Shown here: positions 18,584 to 57,400 of the stretch, one piece after another
Position numbering within the stretch: position 1 is the first letter of the stretch
Layout: each line of letters begins with the position of its first letter
Assembly: GCA_033344895.1 (NCBI GenBank)
Contig: JAWPMN010000001.1
Coordinates: 2,426,001-2,490,000, forward strand
Direction: 5' to 3'
Source: Alphaproteobacteria bacterium
GTDB lineage: Bacteria; Pseudomonadota; Alphaproteobacteria; UBA8366; Aestuariispiraceae
DNA length: 64,000 nt
The notes under the pieces: model-generated
The model's input: the letters and a program-made list of their open reading frames with translations, nothing else
What the model was told of the DNA's origin: nothing
Databases searched by the model: none
Program-made: the position numbers and the translations under genes

Positions 18584-21190
18584 TCAACCGGACAGGGATT
18601 TTGAAGCGATCTCCGTGCAGTCACGGCTCAGGCCGTCAGTGTCCGCGAAGCGCTGCAACTCGGCCTTCATGGCCTGGCTGCGTTCCGCGGTCAGGCGCCG
18701 CCACTGGCCAAAGACCCCCAGCATCCTGGCCGCGACCTGCGGATTGACCTTGTCGAGCTGCTGCAGGAAGTCGATGACGAACTTGTACCCGCTGCCGTCC
18801 TTGGCATGGAAACGGATGGGGTTGCCCATGGCGAAGGCACCGACCAGGGCACGAACCTTGTTCGGCTTCCGGATCGAAAAGACAGGATGCTCCATCAGGG
18901 CGCGAACCCGATCCAGCGTATCGGGCAGTGTGCTCATTGCCTGTACCGACAGCCACTTGTCGATCACCTGCTCGTCGTTTCGGAACCGCTCGTAGAAATC
19001 GGCCAACGCGCCCTCTCGGGCTTCCCCGGGGGCGTCCGACAGGGCGGACAGGGCCGCCATGCGATCGGTCATGTTGTCGGCGTCGTCATATCGTGCTTTG
19101 GCCAGCGCGACCGCCTCGGGCCTGCCGCTCGCGACGATATAGGACAGCGCCGCGTTGCGCAGCGACCTTTGGCCGGCGGCATCGGCACCGGGGTCGAAGG
19201 CGCCGGTCTGTGCCATATCTGTGTGGATGCGATTCAGATCGTCCCACAGCATGTCACCGATGGCGCGGCGCAATGTCTTGCGGGCCTCATGAATCTCATC
19301 GACCGGGACCGGGCGCAGCTGTTCCGCGACATAATCTTCGCTGGGCAGGGCGATGGCGAGGGCCCGGAAGGCCGGGTCGAGATTCTCGTCAGCCAGTGTA
19401 CGGCCCAGCGCGGCAATGAACTCCCGGTCGATCCGGGCTTCCTGCCCGTCACGCAAATCGGCGACCATCTGAATGAGTAGGGCCGTCGCATATTGCTGAC
19501 CGGCCTCCCAGCGGGCGAACGGATCGCTGTCGTGCCCCATCAGGTGGACCCGTTCCGCCGGGGTGTAATCCGCCTTCAGCGTAATCGGTGCCGAGAATCC
19601 GCGATTCAGGGACGGCACGGTTCCGGGATCGACATTTTCGAAGACGGTTGTCTGGGCCGCTTCCGACAGGGTGATGACGGTCTCCGTTCCGACTTCACGC
19701 CCGTCCGGGCCGATCAGTCCGACCCGGATCGGAATCTGCAGCGGTTTCTTCTCCGCCTGACCTGGTGTGGCCTTCGTCGTCTGGACGAGTTTCAGGGTCA
19801 GGGTCCGGCTGTCGGCGTCGTGGGTCCAGCTTGCGGTGACCTCCGGCGTGCCGGATTGCGAATACCAGAGCTTGAAATGGGTCAGATCGACGCCGTTTGC
19901 ATCCGCCATGGCCGCCGCGAAATCGTCGCAGGTCACGGCCTGCCCGTCGTGGCGTTCGAAATAGAGCTTCATGCCCTTCTGGAAACCGTCCTCACCCAGC
20001 ATGGCATGCATCATCCGGATGACTTCCGCGCCCTTTTCGTAGACGGTCGCGGTGTAGAAGTTGTTGATCTCGATATAGCTTTCCGGGCGTACCGGATGGG
20101 CCAGCGGACCGGCGTCCTCCGGGAACTGTCTCGCGCGCAGCGTGCGCACATCCTGGATACGTTTGACGGCGCGGGACCGCATGTCCGCGGAAAATTCCTG
20201 ATCGCGGAAAACGGTCAGGCCTTCCTTCAGGCTCAACTGGAACCAGTCGCGGCAGGTCACGCGATTGCCCGTCCAGTTGTGGAAGTATTCATGGCCGACA
20301 ATCGCCTCGATATTGGCGTAATCGGCATCCGTCGCCGTATGGGAATCCGCCAGGATGTATTTGGCGTTGAAGACGTTCAGCGACTTGTTCTCCATGGCGC
20401 CCATGTTGAAATCGCTGACGGCGACTATGTTGAATATGTCCAGGTCGTACTCCAGGCCGAACCGGTCCTCATCCCACTTCATCGACCGTTTCAGTGCATC
20501 CATGGCATAGGCGCAGCGCGGCGCGTTACCGGGCTCGACCCAGATCTTGAGGTCGACCGTGCGTCCGCTCATGGTTTCGAACGTGTCTTCCAGCGCATCG
20601 AGCCGACCTGCGACCAGCGCAAACAGATAGGCAGGCTTGGGGAACGGGTCCTCCCAGACGGTCAGGTGGCGGCCGTCATCCAGGTCCGATTCCTCGATCA
20701 GGTTGCCATTCGACAACAGGACAGGGCAGGCCGCGCGGTCGGCGCGGATGGTCACCCGGAACCGGCTCATGACATCCGGGCGGTCGGGGTAGTAGGTAAT
20801 GCGCCGGAACCCTTCCGCCTCGCACTGCGTGCAGTAGATGCCGTTCGACTGATACAGGCCTTCCAGTCGTGTATTGTCCGCCGGATTGATCGACACGACC
20901 GTCCGAAGGGTGAATTCGGCGGGTGCTTCCAGCAGCGTCAGTCCGGTTTCCCCCGTCTTGTAGGCCTCCTGCTTCAGCGGCACGCCGTCTAGATCGATCT
21001 CCAGCAGCCGAAGGGCCTCGCCTTCCAGAAAGACCGGCTCTGCGCCGCCATCCGTCCGAACGATCCGCAGGGTGGATTCGACCTGAGTCCCGGACGGCGC
21101 CAGATCGAAAGCCAGATCGGCGGACTCGACCGAGATGCGCGGCGGCGTGTAGTCGGACAGGTGAATGACGGGGGGCTGTTCAGTCTTCAT
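18584..21190 (-). CDS. pepN: Aminopeptidase N (M1 family)
   Basis: Zinc metallopeptidase that removes N-terminal residues from peptides in the cytoplasm. The 868-residue length fits the bacterial PepN type. The exopeptidase motif GAMEN lies at 264-268, the zinc site HEYFH at 300-304, and the third ligand Glu323 sits in LKEGLT. The C-terminal helical domain is present and runs to an intact stop. It is monocistronic or cotranscribed with the downstream helicase. The ribosome site and ATG at 21190 give the expected N-terminus. Confidence 0.95.
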   Translation of the reverse strand: MKTEQPPVIHLSDYTPPRISVESADLAFDLAPSGTQVESTLRIVRTDGGAEPVFLEGEALRLLEIDLDGVPLKQEAYKTGETGLTLLEAPAEFTLRTVVSINPADNTRLEGLYQSNGIYCTQCEAEGFRRITYYPDRPDVMSRFRVTIRADRAACPVLLSNGNLIEESDLDDGRHLTVWEDPFPKPAYLFALVAGRLDALEDTFETMSGRTVDLKIWVEPGNAPRCAYAMDALKRSMKWDEDRFGLEYDLDIFNIVAVSDFNMGAMENKSLNVFNAKYILADSHTATDADYANIEAIVGHEYFHNWTGNRVTCRDWFQLSLKEGLTVFRDQEFSADMRSRAVKRIQDVRTLRARQFPEDAGPLAHPVRPESYIEINNFYTATVYEKGAEVIRMMHAMLGEDGFQKGMKLYFERHDGQAVTCDDFAAAMADANGVDLTHFKLWYSQSGTPEVTASWTHDADSRTLTLKLVQTTKATPGQAEKKPLQIPIRVGLIGPDGREVGTETVITLSEAAQTTVFENVDPGTVPSLNRGFSAPITLKADYTPAERVHLMGHDSDPFARWEAGQQYATALLIQMVADLRDGQEARIDREFIAALGRTLADENLDPAFRALAIALPSEDYVAEQLRPVPVDEIHEARKTLRRAIGDMLWDDLNRIHTDMAQTGAFDPGADAAGQRSLRNAALSYIVASGRPEAVALAKARYDDADNMTDRMAALSALSDAPGEAREGALADFYERFRNDEQVIDKWLSVQAMSTLPDTLDRVRALMEHPVFSIRKPNKVRALVGAFAMGNPIRFHAKDGSGYKFVIDFLQQLDKVNPQVAARMLGVFGQWRRLTAERSQAMKAELQRFADTDGLSRDCTEIASKSLSG

Positions 21191-36073: not shown

Positions 36074-36865
36074 ATGGCCGATCGCGAAAGACTGGCCATC
36101 GTGACCGGTGGCGCACGCCGGATCGGCCGCCGTATCTGTGAGGTGCTGGCGGCCAACCGTCATGCGGTGTGCATTCACTACAATTCGTCCGAAGCCGATG
36201 CAGTCGACCTGAAGCAGCGGATCGAAGAAGCTGGCGGGACGGCGATGATCCACGGTGCCGACCTGACGCAGAGCGGGGCGGCCGATGAGTTGATCGAAGC
36301 TGCGCTCGAACTGGGCCGCCCCGGCATTCTCGTAAACAACGCATCCTGTTTCGACTATGACAGGCCCGGCGACTGGGACTCGGCGCAGTTCGAAAACACC
36401 TTGCGCACCAATCTGATCGCGCCCCTAGCTGTCTCGAAGGCGTTTCACGCGCGCATCGGCCCGGACTGGCAGGATCCGAATATCGTGACCATTCTGGATC
36501 AGAAACTGTTCAACCGGAATCCGGATTACTTCACCTACACCATCTCCAAGGCCGGATTGCAGGAAGCGCAGTATCTGATGGCGATGTCATACGGGCCGGC
36601 CTGTCGCGTCAATGCCGTCGCGCCCGGCCTGACCCTGGTCAGCGGCCCACAGAGCGCGTCGCAGTTCGAAGAGGTTCACGGTCGAACCCTTTTGGGGCGG
36701 GGAACAGTCCCGGACGATATCGCCCGGGCGGTGCTTTATCTCGGTGGTGCGACCGGGGTGACGGGGGCCTGCCTGTCGGTCGATTGCGGGCAGCGGCACG
36801 TCGCATCGGACCGGGACGTCATGTTTCTGAGGCCGGAACGGGAAAGCGAAGGGGGCGAGCGGTGA
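36074..36865 (+). CDS. SDR-family oxidoreductase, FolM-like
   Basis: NAD(P)H-dependent short-chain dehydrogenase of 263 residues. It has the cofactor loop TGGARRIGR (11-19), NNAS (88-91) and catalytic Tyr155/Lys159 in YTISK. ARRIGR in place of the usual GxGxG is typical of pteridine reductase or FolM-type enzymes, and the next gene encodes dihydroneopterin aldolase, supporting a role in (di)hydrofolate or monapterin reduction. It starts 2 bp after uvrB. Its stop overlaps the folB start. The FolM role is inference. Confidence 0.82.
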   Translation: MADRERLAIVTGGARRIGRRICEVLAANRHAVCIHYNSSEADAVDLKQRIEEAGGTAMIHGADLTQSGAADELIEAALELGRPGILVNNASCFDYDRPGDWDSAQFENTLRTNLIAPLAVSKAFHARIGPDWQDPNIVTILDQKLFNRNPDYFTYTISKAGLQEAQYLMAMSYGPACRVNAVAPGLTLVSGPQSASQFEEVHGRTLLGRGTVPDDIARAVLYLGGATGVTGACLSVDCGQRHVASDRDVMFLRPERESEGGER

Positions 36866-37236
36866 ATGACTTTTGGCAGATCCGGCTGGAGGATTTCGAG
36901 GCCATCGTGCGGATCGGCGTTCATGACTTCGAGCGGACCGGACCCCAACGCCTGATTTTTACCATTCACCTGGACCTGGACTATGCTTTCGCGGGGGAGA
37001 TGGACGATCTGTCGAGCGTTGTGGATTACGACTTCGTCCGCGCTGAAATCCTGAAGAGGGTTGCCGAAGGCCATATCGAAACGCAGGAAAAGCTGATCTC
37101 CGATCTGGCGGACGCCTATCTTGGCCATCCGCGCGTATCGAGGGTCGAGATCTTTTCGCGCAAGCCGGACGTCTATCCTGAGCCCGGGGCGATTGGCGTG
37201 TCGTTGGTCCGGCACCGGGCGCGGGACTCGGAATGA
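36862..37236 (+). CDS. folB: Dihydroneopterin aldolase
   Basis: Cleaves 7,8-dihydroneopterin to 6-hydroxymethyl-dihydropterin in folate synthesis. The 124-residue protein has the FolB tunnelling fold signatures: IRLEDFEAIVRIGVHDFERTGPQRLIF with the active-site Glu/His region, DLSSVVDYDFV, and the C-terminal EIFSRKPDVYPEPGAIGVSLVR. It begins at a GTG (36862) overlapping the SDR stop by 4 bp with AGGGGG upstream, so the two are translationally coupled. A 512-bp origin-like gap follows. Confidence 0.9.
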   Translation: MNDFWQIRLEDFEAIVRIGVHDFERTGPQRLIFTIHLDLDYAFAGEMDDLSSVVDYDFVRAEILKRVAEGHIETQEKLISDLADAYLGHPRVSRVEIFSRKPDVYPEPGAIGVSLVRHRARDSE

Positions 37237-37556
37237 GGGCGCCGCTCGTCCGATCCGGTGCATAGCGAAGGGTTAAATCCCGTTTGTGAGGAATCGATTC
37301 CGGTGAGCGTAAATTGCTATAAAATCGACAAGAATCCGGACCGGCGTGGTTGAGTTGTTCACAGGGGGGACGGGGGCAAAGGATGTGCCATATGTTGCAA
37401 TAGGTTTTTTTGCCTTTAACGTTTTTTTCATACTTGACACTTTGAAAGTGAAGCAAAAACAAATGTTTAGTTATTTGTGGTTAAAAAATGGGCAAACAGG
37501 TTGAGTCCCCAGCGTTGCGCGGGGGTGCCCTGTCCGACCACATGTTGCTAACAAGG

Positions 37557-37578
37557 TTATCCACAGAGACGGTGGATA
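37557..37578 (+). promoter_or_regulatory. DnaA box pair as an inverted repeat
   Basis: The consensus box TTATCCACA (37557-37565) is followed by GTGGATA (37572-37578), making a 7-bp inverted repeat TATCCAC/GTGGATA with a 7-base loop. Two oppositely oriented boxes this close are typical of DnaA-binding clusters. Confidence 0.6.
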
Positions 37579-37586
37579 GCTCAGAC

Positions 37587-37607
37587 AAATGCGATTGCAT
37601 CGCATTT
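37587..37607. repeat. Perfect 9-bp inverted repeat in origin-like region
   Basis: AAATGCGAT (37587-37595) and ATCGCATTT (37599-37607) are perfect complements around TGC, 8 bp right of the DnaA box pair. It is either a protein-binding site or a small hairpin; the sequence after it is AT-rich but not a clean T run. Confidence 0.6.
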
Positions 37608-37626
37608 TATCTAATTTTGTGCAGCT

Positions 37627-37694
37627 GCTGCGCATCAGAATACCAATTCGGCAGCGCGTCAGGGTTGCGTGATTGACATGTTGCAGCGCGTCAG
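37627..37694 (+). repeat. Three iteron-like direct repeats
   Basis: GCTGCGCATCAG (37627-37638), GCAGCGCGTCAG (37651-37662) and GCAGCGCGTCAG (37683-37694) lie in the same orientation with start-to-start distances of 24 and 32 bp; the last two are identical. They end 54 bp before uvrC and could be binding sites for a replication or transcription factor. Confidence 0.55.
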
Positions 37695-37748
37695 AACAAC
37701 GAGACACTGATTCCTAAAGAACTTTTCGGATTAGAGGGCCGGGCAAGC

Positions 37749-39722
37749 GTGATTGAGGCAGAAAAAGGCGATGAGACCAAATCCGGCGGCCGTACCCGGC
37801 TGCAAACCGGTGCGGATGTCATTCGCGGCTATCTCGACCACCTTGGGAACGATGCCGGCGTCTACCGGATGATTTCCGGGGAAGGGGAGGCCCTCTATGT
37901 CGGGAAGGCGCATAATCTCAAGAAACGCGTCGCGACCTATTCCCGTCCGGATCGATTGCCCATTCGGTTGCAGCGCATGGTGGCGGAAACCGCGTCCATG
38001 GAATTCGTGACCTGTGCCAGCGAGGTCGAGGCCCTGCTGCTGGAGAACAACCTGATCAAGCGGCTGATGCCGCGTTACAACGTCCTGCTTCGCGACGACA
38101 AGACATTCCCCGACATCCTGATCCGGGGCGATCAGGACTATCCGCAGATCGTCAAACATCGCGGTGCGCGGGATCGCAAGGGCGATTTTTTCGGGCCCTT
38201 TGCATCGGCGGGGGCGGTCAATCGCACCCTGAATGTGTTGCAGAGAGCCTTTCTGCTGCGCAATTGCAGCGACGGCGTGTTCCGGAATCGCTCACGCCCC
38301 TGCCTGCAGTATCAGATCAAGCGCTGCAGCGCGCCCTGCGTTGGCTACATCTCCCGCCCGGACTACGCGGCGACGGTGGATCAGGCCAAGGCCTTCCTGT
38401 CCGGCCGGTCCCAGGAGGTCAAGGACGACCTGGCGAAAGCCATGCAGGAGGCGTCGGATGCCCTGGATTTTGAGCGCGCCGCCGCCTTGCGCGACCGGCT
38501 TCGCGCCATGGCCCATGTTCAGTCCAGCCAGGACATCAATATCGAAGGGATCGGCGATGCCGATGTCGTCGCACTGGAGCAGCGCGGCGGACAGAGCTGT
38601 ATCCAGGTATTCTTCTATCGTGGCGGGCGCAACAACGGAAACCGCGCCTATTTTCCCAGCCATGACAAGCAGTTGGAGCCACCGGAGGTGCTGGCCGGGT
38701 TTCTGGGGCAGTTCTATGAGAACCGTCCGCCGCCCAAGGACATCCTGGTCAACGAGAGGCCGGCCGAACTGGACCTTCTGGGGGAAGCGCTGGGCATCAA
38801 GGCCGGACGCAAGGTTACCATCGCCGTGCCCCAACGCGGCGGTCGTCGAAAGGCCGTCGATCATGCCGCCGACAACGCCCGCGACGCGCTGGAACGGCGG
38901 CTTGCCGAAACCTCCAGCCAGCGCCGCCTGCTGACCGGGCTTGCGGATCTGGCCGGACTTGATGCGCCCCCGGAACGGGTTGAAGTCTATGACAACAGCC
39001 ATATCTCCGGCCGCCAGGCCGTCGGCGCGATGATCGTTGCGGGCGGTGAAGGCTTCATGAAATCCGCCTATCGCAAGTTCAATATCCGGGGCGATGCGAT
39101 CGGAAAAGAGGCCGCCGATGCGGCAGCGGTCGGGCTTGCCGAGGCGCCTGTTCCGGCCATCGGGGATGCGCCCGCGGGCGGCGACGACTACGCCATGACC
39201 CGCGAGGTGATCTATCGCCGGTTTGCACGCGCCATGAAGGAAGACCCCGACCGGTCGGAAGGGCAATGGCCCGATCTTGTGATCCTGGATGGCGGACGAG
39301 GACAACTGACCGCGGCCATGGAGGCGCTGGACGAGTTGGGCCTTCAGGACGAAGTGCCAATCATGTCCGTCGCGAAGGGACCGGAGCGTGAGGCGGGCCG
39401 CGAGAGGATCATCCTGCCGGGCGCCGAGCAGCCTGTTCTGCTGCCGCCGCGCGACCCGGTGCTGTACTTCATCCAGCGTCTGCGCGACGAGGCGCACCGA
39501 TTTGCCATCGGGTCGCATCGGAAGCGCCGCGCCAAGGATCAGGCGCGCAATCCGCTGGATGAGATTCCCGGGATCGGTGCTAAACGCAAGAAGGCGCTGC
39601 TGCTATACTTCGGGTCCGCCAAGGCGGTTTCGAGGGCGTCAGTTGCGGATCTGGAAAAGGTGGATGGGGTTTCGAATGCGGTTGCGCGCAAGATCCACGG
39701 GTTCTTTCATCCGAACGGTTAG
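37749..39722 (+). CDS. uvrC: UvrABC excinuclease subunit C
   Basis: Makes the dual incisions of nucleotide excision repair. The 657-residue protein has the N-terminal GIY-YIG nuclease ([25 protein letters not shown]), a UVR domain ([21 protein letters not shown]) that meets UvrB, the RNase H-like C-nuclease ([28 protein letters not shown]) and tandem C-terminal helix-hairpin-helix motifs ([13 protein letters not shown] and [12 protein letters not shown]). The start is GTG at 37749, behind GAGGG. It is preceded by the origin-like gap. Confidence 0.97.
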
Positions 39723-54439: not shown

Positions 54440-57400
54440 TCACTTCTTCTTGGCTGCCGCCTTTTTCGAAGCCGCTTTCTTGGCGGCGGACTTCTTGGCC
54501 GCTGCCTTTGTCGTGCCTGCGGCTTTCTTGGCGGTTGCCTTCTTGGAAGCGGTTTTCTTCGAAACGGCGACCTTGCGGCTGCGCTCCGGCAGGTCCAGTG
54601 CCTCATTCACCAGCGCCGCCTGTTCGATGGCGTGGCGTTTGGCACTGCCGGTGGCCGGCGAGGCCGCGGCTTCGCGGCCGACATAACGCGGACGGCCGTT
54701 CGGCTTGTGGTTCAGTTCTTCCAGGACGCGTTCGATCCGACGGTCGACGAAGAACCAGGCACCGTTGTTCTCAGGCTCTTCCTGGCACCAGATCACTTCC
54801 GCGTTCGGGAAACGCGCCAGTTCCGTGGTCACCGCATGGAACGGGAAGGGGTAGAGCTGTTCGACGCGCATGATGTAGACGTCTTTCAGCCCCTTGGCAT
54901 CGCGTTCGGCCTCCAGGTCGAAATAGACCTTGCCGGAACACAGGATGACGCGGCGGATGTCCTCGTCGGGCGCCAGCGAACCGTTCAACTGGCCATTGTC
55001 CCAGAGGACCCGGTGGAAGGTCGTTCCCGGACCGAACTCCTCCAGTTTCGAAACGCAGGCCTTGTGACGCAGCAGCGATTTCGGCGTCATCTGGATCAGC
55101 GGCTTGCGGAAGTTCCGACGCACCTGACGGCGCAGGGCGTGGAAGTAGTTGGCGGGCTGCGTGATGTTGCAGACCTGCCAGTTGTCTTCCGCCGAAAGCT
55201 GCAGATAACGCTCCAGTCGGGCGGACGAATGTTCCGGTCCCTGACCCTCGTAACCGTGCGGCAGCAGCATCACCAGACCGCACATGCGCAGCCATTTGGT
55301 TTCACCCGATGCGATGAACTGATCGATGATGACCTGCGCGCCGTTAGCGAAGTCGCCGAACTGGGCTTCCCATAGAACCAGCGAGTGCGGTTCGGCCGAA
55401 GAATAGCCGTATTCGAAGCCCAGCAGACCGAACTCGCTCAGCGGACTGTCGATCACCTCGAACGGCGCCTGCCCCATCCGGATGTTGTTCAGCGGAATGT
55501 GCCGGTTCTCGTTTTCCTGATCGACCAGGACCGCATGCCGCTGCGAGAAGGTGCCCCGCTCGCAATCCTCGCCGCTCAGACGGATCGTCGTGGATTCGCA
55601 GAGCAGCGTTCCGAAGGCCAGCGCCTCGGCTGTGCCCCAGTCGATCCCCTCGCCGGTTTCGATCATCTTGCGCTTGGCATCGAGCTGGCGTTCGATCTTG
55701 GGGTTCAGCTTGAAGTTCTGCGGTGCCTGCGAGATGGCATGACCGACTTCACGCAGCAGATCCATGTCGACCGAGGTATGGCCGCGACGGGCCCCTTCCT
55801 CGGCAATCGACAGGCCGGACCACTTGCCTTCCAGCCAGTCGGCCTTGTTCGGCTTGAACGATTTCGCGGCTTCGAAGCTTTCGTCCAGGGTCTGCTTGAT
55901 CTCGGATTTCAGGGCTTCGCAGCCTTTCGCGTCGATGACGCCCAGTTCCTGCAGGCGCTTGGCGTAGATCTCGCGGGTTCGCGGATGGTTCTTGATCTTG
56001 GTGTACATCGAAGGCTGCGTGAACATCGGTTCGTCGCCTTCGTTGTGACCATGGCGCCGGTAGCACCACATGTCGATCACCACATCCTTCTTGAACTTCT
56101 GACGGTATTCCATGGCCAGACGCGCGACATGCACGCAGGCTTCCGGATCGTCGCCGTTCACGTGGAACACCGGGGCGTCCACGGTCTTCGCCATGTCGGA
56201 ACAATAGGGCGAGGAACGCGACTTGGACGGGGCCGTGGTGAAGCCGATCTGGTTGTTGATCACGATGTGGATCGTGCCGCCGGTCTTGTAGCCGTCCAGT
56301 TGGCTCAGCAGGAAGGTCTCCGCCACGACGCCCTGACCAATGAAGGCCGCATCGCCATGCAGCAGCAGCCCCATGACCCGGTTGCGGTCGCTGTCGGCAC
56401 GCTGATGCTGCTTGGCACGCACCTTACCGAGGACGACCGTGTTGACGCATTCCAGATGGCTCGGGTTGGCGGCCAGTGACAGGTGAATGGTCTTGCCTTC
56501 GAAGTCCCGGTCCGCAGATGTCCCCAGATGGTACTTCACGTCGCCGGAGCCCTGGATGGAATCCGGCTTGCCCGCCAGACCTTCGAATTCCGCGAAGATC
56601 TGCATGTAGGGCTTTTTCATTATGTTGGCGAGGACGTTCAGACGGCCGCGATGCGCCATGCCCAGAACGACTTCCTCCAGACCCAGCTGCGCGCCGCGTT
56701 TGAAGATCTGCTCCATCATCGGAACCAGACTCTCGCCGCCGTCGAGGCCGAAGCGCTTTGTGCCGCGATACTTGGTGTCGAGATAGGTCTCGAACATGTC
56801 CGCGCTGGTCAGGCGTTCCAGAATTGTCTGGCGCCCCAGATCGGTGAAGTCCTTCCGGTTCCGGCTGCTTTCGATCCGTTCCTGAATCCAGGATTTCTCG
56901 TCCGGGTCCTGAATGTGCAGGAATTCGACGCCGATGCTGCCGCAATAGGTCTGCCGGCAGATCTTGACGATCTCGCGGACCGTCGCCGATTCCAGGCCCA
57001 GATAGTAGTTGATGAAGATCGGGCGATCCATGTCCCGCTCTTCGAACCCGTAGGTCGCCGGGTCCAGTTCCGGATGGTCTTCCCGCTTCTCCAGGCCCAG
57101 CGGGTCCAGATTGGCGGCCAGATGACCGCGCATGCGATAGGCGCGGATCAGCATCAGGGCGCGGATCGAATCCAGCGTCGCCTGACGGATCTGGTCGCTG
57201 CCGGCCGCGACGCCGCCGCCGCGCAGGGCAGAGATCAGCTGTTGAATGGAATCCTGCGAGATGTCCGGATCGCTGAGTGCATCGGACAGACTCTGCCCGC
57301 CGCCGGAACTGCCTTCGCCGACAACACGGGTCGTGCGCTTGGTCCAGCTCGGTCCCTTGTGATCGTCCTCCAGGACGACCTCACCTGGCTCGAGGGTTTC

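Follow-up and report, generated by a model that had tools for sequence, protein, structure and literature searches.

A candidate DARS-type DnaA-box element upstream of uvrC in Alphaproteobacteria

Introduction

The gap between folB and uvrC in an alphaproteobacterial genome (a single contig of 4,637,961 bp) contains DnaA boxes in both orientations, an AT-rich tract and five GANTC sites, all of which were found again in the present analysis. The window, i.e., the whole 64-kb stretch of DNA analyzed, corresponds to positions 2426001-2490000 of that contig. From these features, the original prediction was of a replication origin (oriC) or of a locus controlled by DnaA and CcrM. A cluster of DnaA boxes in an AT-rich gap is not necessarily an origin. 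Models of the alphaproteobacterial cell cycle are built on the synthesis of DnaA, on HdaA and on proteolysis, and no route of ATP-DnaA regeneration is known to be established in these bacteria. The best explanation, to which a probability of about 0.68 is assigned, is that the gap carries a DARS-type (DnaA-reactivating sequence) element, an extra-origin site that would regenerate ATP-DnaA as in E. coli. This reading is more specific than the original prediction and was absent from it.

Architecture of the element in the window

The gap extends from 37237 to 37748, bounded by the stop of folB at 37236 and the start of uvrC at 37749. Its GC content is 0.484, and no other 100-bp stretch in the window is richer in AT than the one that starts inside it at 37391. 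The exact DnaA box TTATCCACA is present as a single copy in the window, at 37557 in the gap, while the whole genome holds 5 exact copies, against 20 of the reversed control pattern. The features of the locus are collected in Table 1. The core has the layout III-N3-II-N6-I with box I inverted; the conserved part of box I, GTGGATAG, occupies 37572-37579, 6 bp after box II.

The GANTC sites of the gap start at 37291, 37296, 37332, 37503 and 37709. As for the predicted enrichment, the five sites are there, but bins of 512 bp with 5 or 6 GANTC also occur near 19221, 56800-56880 and 57160-57240, and the density of the gap by itself is not exceptional. It is the conservation in relatives (14 of 14 family genomes), and not GANTC density, that places the site above chance. 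The site at 37503, which precedes box II by 54 bp, is the only one whose position recurs in relatives, and the spacer between box II and box I is free of GANTC in the window.

Two repeats lie between the element and uvrC. Right after the element, at 37587-37607, there is a perfect 9-bp inverted repeat, AAATGCGAT-TGC-ATCGCATTT, which is terminator-like and absent in the nearest relative, and 37627-37694 holds three copies of a 12-mer repeat resembling GCAGCGCGTCAG.

Table 1. Coordinates of the features of the folB–uvrC locus, numbered from the first base of the window.
Feature	Position	Strand	Basis or remark
folB	36784..37236	+	upstream neighbour; start as in the ORF tool listing
Whole conserved element, distal DnaA box to inverted box I	37355..37579	+	alignment and conservation across loci
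Distal DnaA box TTGTTCACA	37355..37363	+	202 bp before box II
AT-rich tract, 73% AT	37391..37490	n/a	composition
Predicted IHF-like site AAACAAATGTTTA	37457..37469	+	1 mismatch to WATCAANNNNTTR; 100 bp before box II
DnaA box TTAACCACA	37476	-	near-consensus match
Fis-consensus 15-mer GNNYANNNNNTRNNC (GGTTAAAAAATGGGC), putative palindrome site	37479..37493	+	78 bp before box II
GANTC site (GAGTC)	37503..37507	n/a	recurs in relatives at -54/-55 from box II
Weak DnaA box III TTGCTAACA	37545..37553	+	3 bp before box II
DnaA box II TTATCCACA	37557..37565	+	exact consensus
Inverted DnaA box I CTATCCACC	37571..37579	-	near-consensus match, opposite to box II
uvrC	37749..39722	+	usual downstream neighbour of the element

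Conservation upstream of uvrC

By DNA similarity search, the gap was matched in 6 of 59 relatives, counting the source genome. In the family, TTATCCACA or TTTTCCACA was present upstream of uvrC in 14/14 genomes from 7 genera, and the alignment of the gap, which had been proposed as a check, showed a common layout; the box at 37476 was conserved only in part.

A wider set of 110 uvrC loci was composed of the best 80 named contigs, a non-random choice, and of order-level genomes. Deduplication left 104 loci, among which near duplicates may persist. In 63 of them, the 700 bp that precede uvrC contain the core pair TTWTCCACA-N6-GTGGA, which did not occur once in the 876,056 control strand-bases elsewhere in the same 104 loci. 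In all 63 pair-bearing loci, the pair had the same orientation, and its spacer was 6 bp in every case although 0-15 was allowed. Box III, with at most 2 mismatches to TTWTNCACA, stood at exactly -12 in 46/63 loci, compared with 0-4 loci at each of 15 other offsets.

Further upstream, an IHF-like site with no more than one mismatch was located at -97 to -100 in 47/63 loci (18 exact), and 55/63 carried the Fis-consensus 15-mer between -77 and -79, where about 0.023 per locus would be expected by chance. A distal TTDTNCACA box was detected in 42/63 loci, 38 of them with the box 197-203 bp upstream and 4 with it at 211-213 bp; the remaining distances up to 330 bp were 12 bp (3), 81 bp (1) and 239 bp (1). 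The two distance classes are about one helical turn apart; this hints at a looped complex at the element but is not proof of one. GANTC overlapped the pair spacer in 18/63 loci and was present within -60 to +20 in 37/63, compared with about 0.12 expected per locus. Thus, the part of the original prediction that concerned a DnaA/CcrM locus is supported as far as sequence goes, with DnaA boxes conserved at fixed spacing and GANTC at recurrent places beside them.

Two of the loci carry titles from outside the class (L091, CP051228.1, titled Mesoflavibacter, and L142, PCAU01000009.1, titled Acidobacteria). Both UvrC and element look alphaproteobacterial in them, and they are probably mislabelled MAGs.

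Distribution of the element in the class and phylum

A sequence-only model, R1, was built from 41 alphaproteobacterial loci over 132 positions, from the IHF site to box I, with the distal box excluded. At E <= 0.001, 260 of the 387 alphaproteobacterial genomes gave a match, usually a single one, and these belong to 180 of the 263 genera. Among the best 80 named uvrC loci, 63 had a forward match, although 21 of these belong to the training set and two are weak or partial (L096 and L166); the 17 named loci with no R1 match include all five of Microvirga. As a chance control, reversed stretches of the source genome (1.18 Mb plus the window) gave no R1 match better than E 8.

In a sample of the phylum, 101 of 150 genomes were matched, 14 of them alphaproteobacterial and 87 from other groups. 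The rate outside Alphaproteobacteria is therefore 87 out of at most 116, if all 29 non-matching genomes of unassigned class are counted. In non-alphaproteobacterial family f166, e.g., genome G455, up to nine R1 matches per genome were observed. Within the loci examined, the matches of three non-alphaproteobacterial stretches (L288, L291 and L294) had no uvrB, mutH, bioD, rppH or uvrC adjoining them, and on their own these matches are no confirmation of the DARS1 or DARS2 positions.

Relation to the DARS sites of E. coli

In PMC5742627, DARS1 and DARS2 are described as having three DnaA boxes each at equal spacing, with box I opposite to boxes II and III. The same arrangement is found in the window at 37545, 37557 and 37571(-). 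In E. coli, DARS1 lies at 0.813 Mb in the bioD-uvrB gap, with the core III-TGG-TTATCCACA-GGAATA-GTGGATAA, and DARS2 at 2.969 Mb between rppH and mutH, with the core III-ACT-CTATCCACA-GAAAAG-GTGAATAA; its box I-III stretch was identified by means of the primers given in PMC4585315. The N3 and N6 spacings are common to the window element and to both E. coli sites.

R1, which was trained without any DARS, recovered the two sites as ranks 1 and 2 of 4. With filters off, DARS1 (25.9 bits) and DARS2 (19.0 bits) were the top two matches in 11 kb of E. coli K-12. A larger set of 120,004 bases also took in oriC, datA and a background of 100 kb; there, the scores were 25.9 bits for DARS1, 19.4 for DARS2, 16.9 for datA and 16.5 for oriC, with no other match up to E 10. 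The matches at datA and oriC stop before box I.

Additional factors were also compared. According to PMC5742627, PMC10380432, PMC8682772 and PMC4245941, DARS2 additionally needs IHF and Fis. IHF-like sites were computed at -99 and -83 in E. coli DARS2, 3 bp apart, in agreement with the separation reported for IBS1-2. A predicted IHF site at the corresponding distance from the core is found in the window element. The Fis-type block is not at the DARS2 place, and a search of the source genome for a stand-alone Fis gave none (10 HTH_8 matches, the shortest open frame being 197 aa). By its core architecture, the predicted element is grouped with DARS, as a variant and not as a strict DARS2.

Several observations count against the DARS reading. 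The Fis-type block lies at -78 and not at -137, and no stand-alone Fis was found. R1 gave no match in 127/387 alphaproteobacterial genomes, some of which are misses due to the strict filters, and the exact pair is missing in 41/104 uvrC loci. In the 16 genomes with both placed, the distance between element and hemE is spread from 4.8% to 46.4% of genome length (KS p 0.16 versus uniform), while DARS positions are described as conserved among E. coli relatives; a conserved element-origin distance, as for E. coli DARS, had seemed suggestive and was dropped, as the distribution does not differ from uniform. Finally, the element is mostly beside uvrC and in a single orientation, which also fits a promoter role.

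Gene context and alternative functions

The last point leads to the alternative that survives best, an unlikely one in our judgement, namely a promoter controlled by DnaA and IHF that would couple the expression of uvrC to the replication cycle, comparable to the repression of uvrB by DnaA that is reported for E. coli in PMC6015884. In addition to the shared orientation of the pair in all 63 pair-bearing uvrC loci, this alternative is favored by the gene context, since uvrC is just downstream in 29 of the best 30 class loci matched by R1. In 20 further loci, picked partly as extra copies or from distant families, uvrC was present in 12 but absent from the fetched stretch in 8, two of them near contig ends. 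In L229, the order uvrB-SDR-folB-element is followed by genes that face the element; in L247, the element stands between an SDR gene and a hydrolase gene facing it; and some uvrC-free copies sit between convergent genes. Second copies and small genomes also have other neighbours. In L233 and L234, which are near contig ends, the element adjoins an aldolase-SDR gene, and in the small genomes L243 and L244 it is beside rplM or between xseA and a cutA-like frame. No sigma-70-type promoter was found, and the distance from the element to the UvrC match varies from about 93 to 622 bp. The distal box, which is outside R1, was present in 13 of the 20 further loci, including L229, L233 and L234. Since copies without uvrC exist, some of them with the distal box, the element appears to act as a unit separable from uvrC, and the case for a plain uvrC promoter as its sole role is weakened by them. 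DARS and transcriptional roles are compatible and can coexist in one element. As a separate observation, L230, L232, L233 and L234 are second copies of the element, away from uvrC, in families f47 and f18.

A site of the datA kind is improbable; it would make DnaA less active, either through ATP hydrolysis or by titrating it, with a loop formed by IHF. The element resembles datA, as presented in PMC10380432, in its DnaA boxes flanking one IHF site at fixed spacing, and the R1 match at datA, though weak, is consistent with this resemblance. However, the best-conserved part of the element is the head-to-head pair of boxes I and II at DARS spacing, both DARS1 and DARS2 outscore datA, whose match is without box I, and the element is far from the origin.

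A chromosomal origin at a novel position, for which the DnaA boxes, the AT-rich tract and the GANTC sites of the gap would speak, is very hard to sustain. GC skew was surveyed with forty 20-kb samples and three window pieces. Between 1.86 and 3.94 Mb it is positive, and from about 4.06 Mb, across position 0, up to 1.74 Mb it is negative. The GC-skew check proposed with the original prediction turned out against an origin here: in a contiguous scan of 356 kb, the cumulative skew is lowest in the bin 1,656,000-1,659,999, and the best parB match is at 1.637 Mb. This minimum is adjoined by the gap between the divergent genes ppsR and hemE, at about 1,655,019-1,655,354. We take the ppsR-hemE gap to be the alphaproteobacterial place of the origin, as in Caulobacter, and it is likely the real oriC of this genome. 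The element, at 2.4635 Mb, is 808 kb from hemE and about 0.81 Mb from the skew minimum. The folB-uvrC gap thus has neither the GC-skew minimum nor the conserved origin gene neighbourhood, and in another genome (G384) the element is near the skew switch opposite hemE. On the grounds of skew, parB position and the ppsR-hemE gap, oriC was ruled out here, which leaves, of "oriC or DnaA/CcrM locus", the second half. The ppsR-hemE gap (L052 15020-15355) shows nine weak DnaA-like matches in 336 bp, with a background of 1.5, and an AT-rich end.

An RNA gene or hairpin formed by the inverted boxes, with TATCCAC and GTGGATA able to pair, has a negligible probability, since an Rfam search of the gap gave nothing above the gathering score and the five family genomes with TTTTCCACA retain GTGGATA in the other arm, leaving the pairing uncompensated, while the change to TTTTCCACA fits DnaA-box degeneracy.

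Proposed mechanism and significance

For the DARS-type element, the architecture is read from the sequence, while DnaA and IHF binding, ADP release, the effect on initiation and any role of methylation are transferred from E. coli. ADP-DnaA would bind the core boxes III, II and inverted I, so that the molecules on boxes I and II would contact each other head to head. IHF would bend the DNA about 100 bp upstream of the core, and a protein on the Fis-type palindrome, together with DnaA on the distal box some 200 bp off, may assist. A RegA/PrrA-type regulator that carries a Fis-type HTH (L280) is a candidate for the palindrome protein. ADP would then leave and DnaA would take up ATP, becoming competent to start replication at the hemE oriC. 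CcrM methylation, which reports fork passage, could tune the site through the GANTC beside or between the boxes.

A broader proposal, which we offer tentatively and regard as possible without favoring it, is that an ancient proteobacterial DARS was kept in at least one copy in most of the sampled alphaproteobacteria. These copies would have IHF at the DARS2 distance, a new palindrome factor, a distal box in helical phase (about 200/212 bp) and CcrM sites between the boxes, whose methylation after fork passage would help to switch DnaA reactivation on or off.

According to PMC4245941 and PMC5742627, the E. coli relatives that share DARS2 or its core are confined to the gamma, or to the beta and gamma, groups; a broader conservation of DARS-like sequences, in "many proteobacterial species", is stated in PMC10380432, which cites a 2009 paper. 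A literature search of titles and abstracts found no alphaproteobacterial DARS, which is not proof of absence. If the DARS reading is true, the matched alphaproteobacterial genomes (260 of the 387 sampled) would offer a discrete DNA segment for deletion and assay, the DARS mechanism would be older, towards the proteobacterial root, in view of the 87 other genomes also matched, and DnaA reactivation would be tied to CcrM methylation.

Other DnaA boxes were observed in the source genome. Consensus or near-consensus boxes at 2724678-2725011 (L064 9679-10012) and 4472089 (L067 6090) are upstream of two different ribonucleotide reductase genes, one box being inside, and together with the DARS-like site they make up three of the five exact TTATCCACA of the genome. 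At 2510342 (L066 342), the tandem DnaA box pair TTGTTCACAGACTTATCCACAGG, with N3 spacing, immediately precedes a frame that encodes a succinate dehydrogenase cytochrome domain.

Comparison with known systems

The alphaproteobacterial oriC at ppsR-hemE resembles the folB-uvrC gap in having DnaA-type boxes in an intergenic gap, but it differs in lying at the skew minimum and in its weaker boxes. The E. coli uvrB promoter (PMC6015884) also has DnaA boxes upstream of an excision-repair gene, whereas the alphaproteobacterial element is a fixed multi-box IHF architecture that is found without uvrC too. datA shares DnaA boxes and one IHF site at fixed spacing, but it is without the conserved head-to-head pair at DARS spacing, and its R1 match is weaker and lacks box I.

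DARS2 has equal core spacing, and its IHF-like site at -99 in E. coli compares with -97 to -100 in the alphaproteobacterial element. The exact Fis consensus, in contrast, is at -137 in E. coli and at -78 in the window, and the distal box about 200 bp away and the GANTC sites are unlike DARS2. DARS1 shares the III-N3-II-N6-I core with box I inverted and likewise adjoins an excision-repair gene, uvrB in E. coli and usually uvrC here. It differs in being about 101 bp long with no IHF requirement, as described in PMC5742627, whereas the alphaproteobacterial element adds to the core an IHF-like site, a Fis-type block and a distal box.
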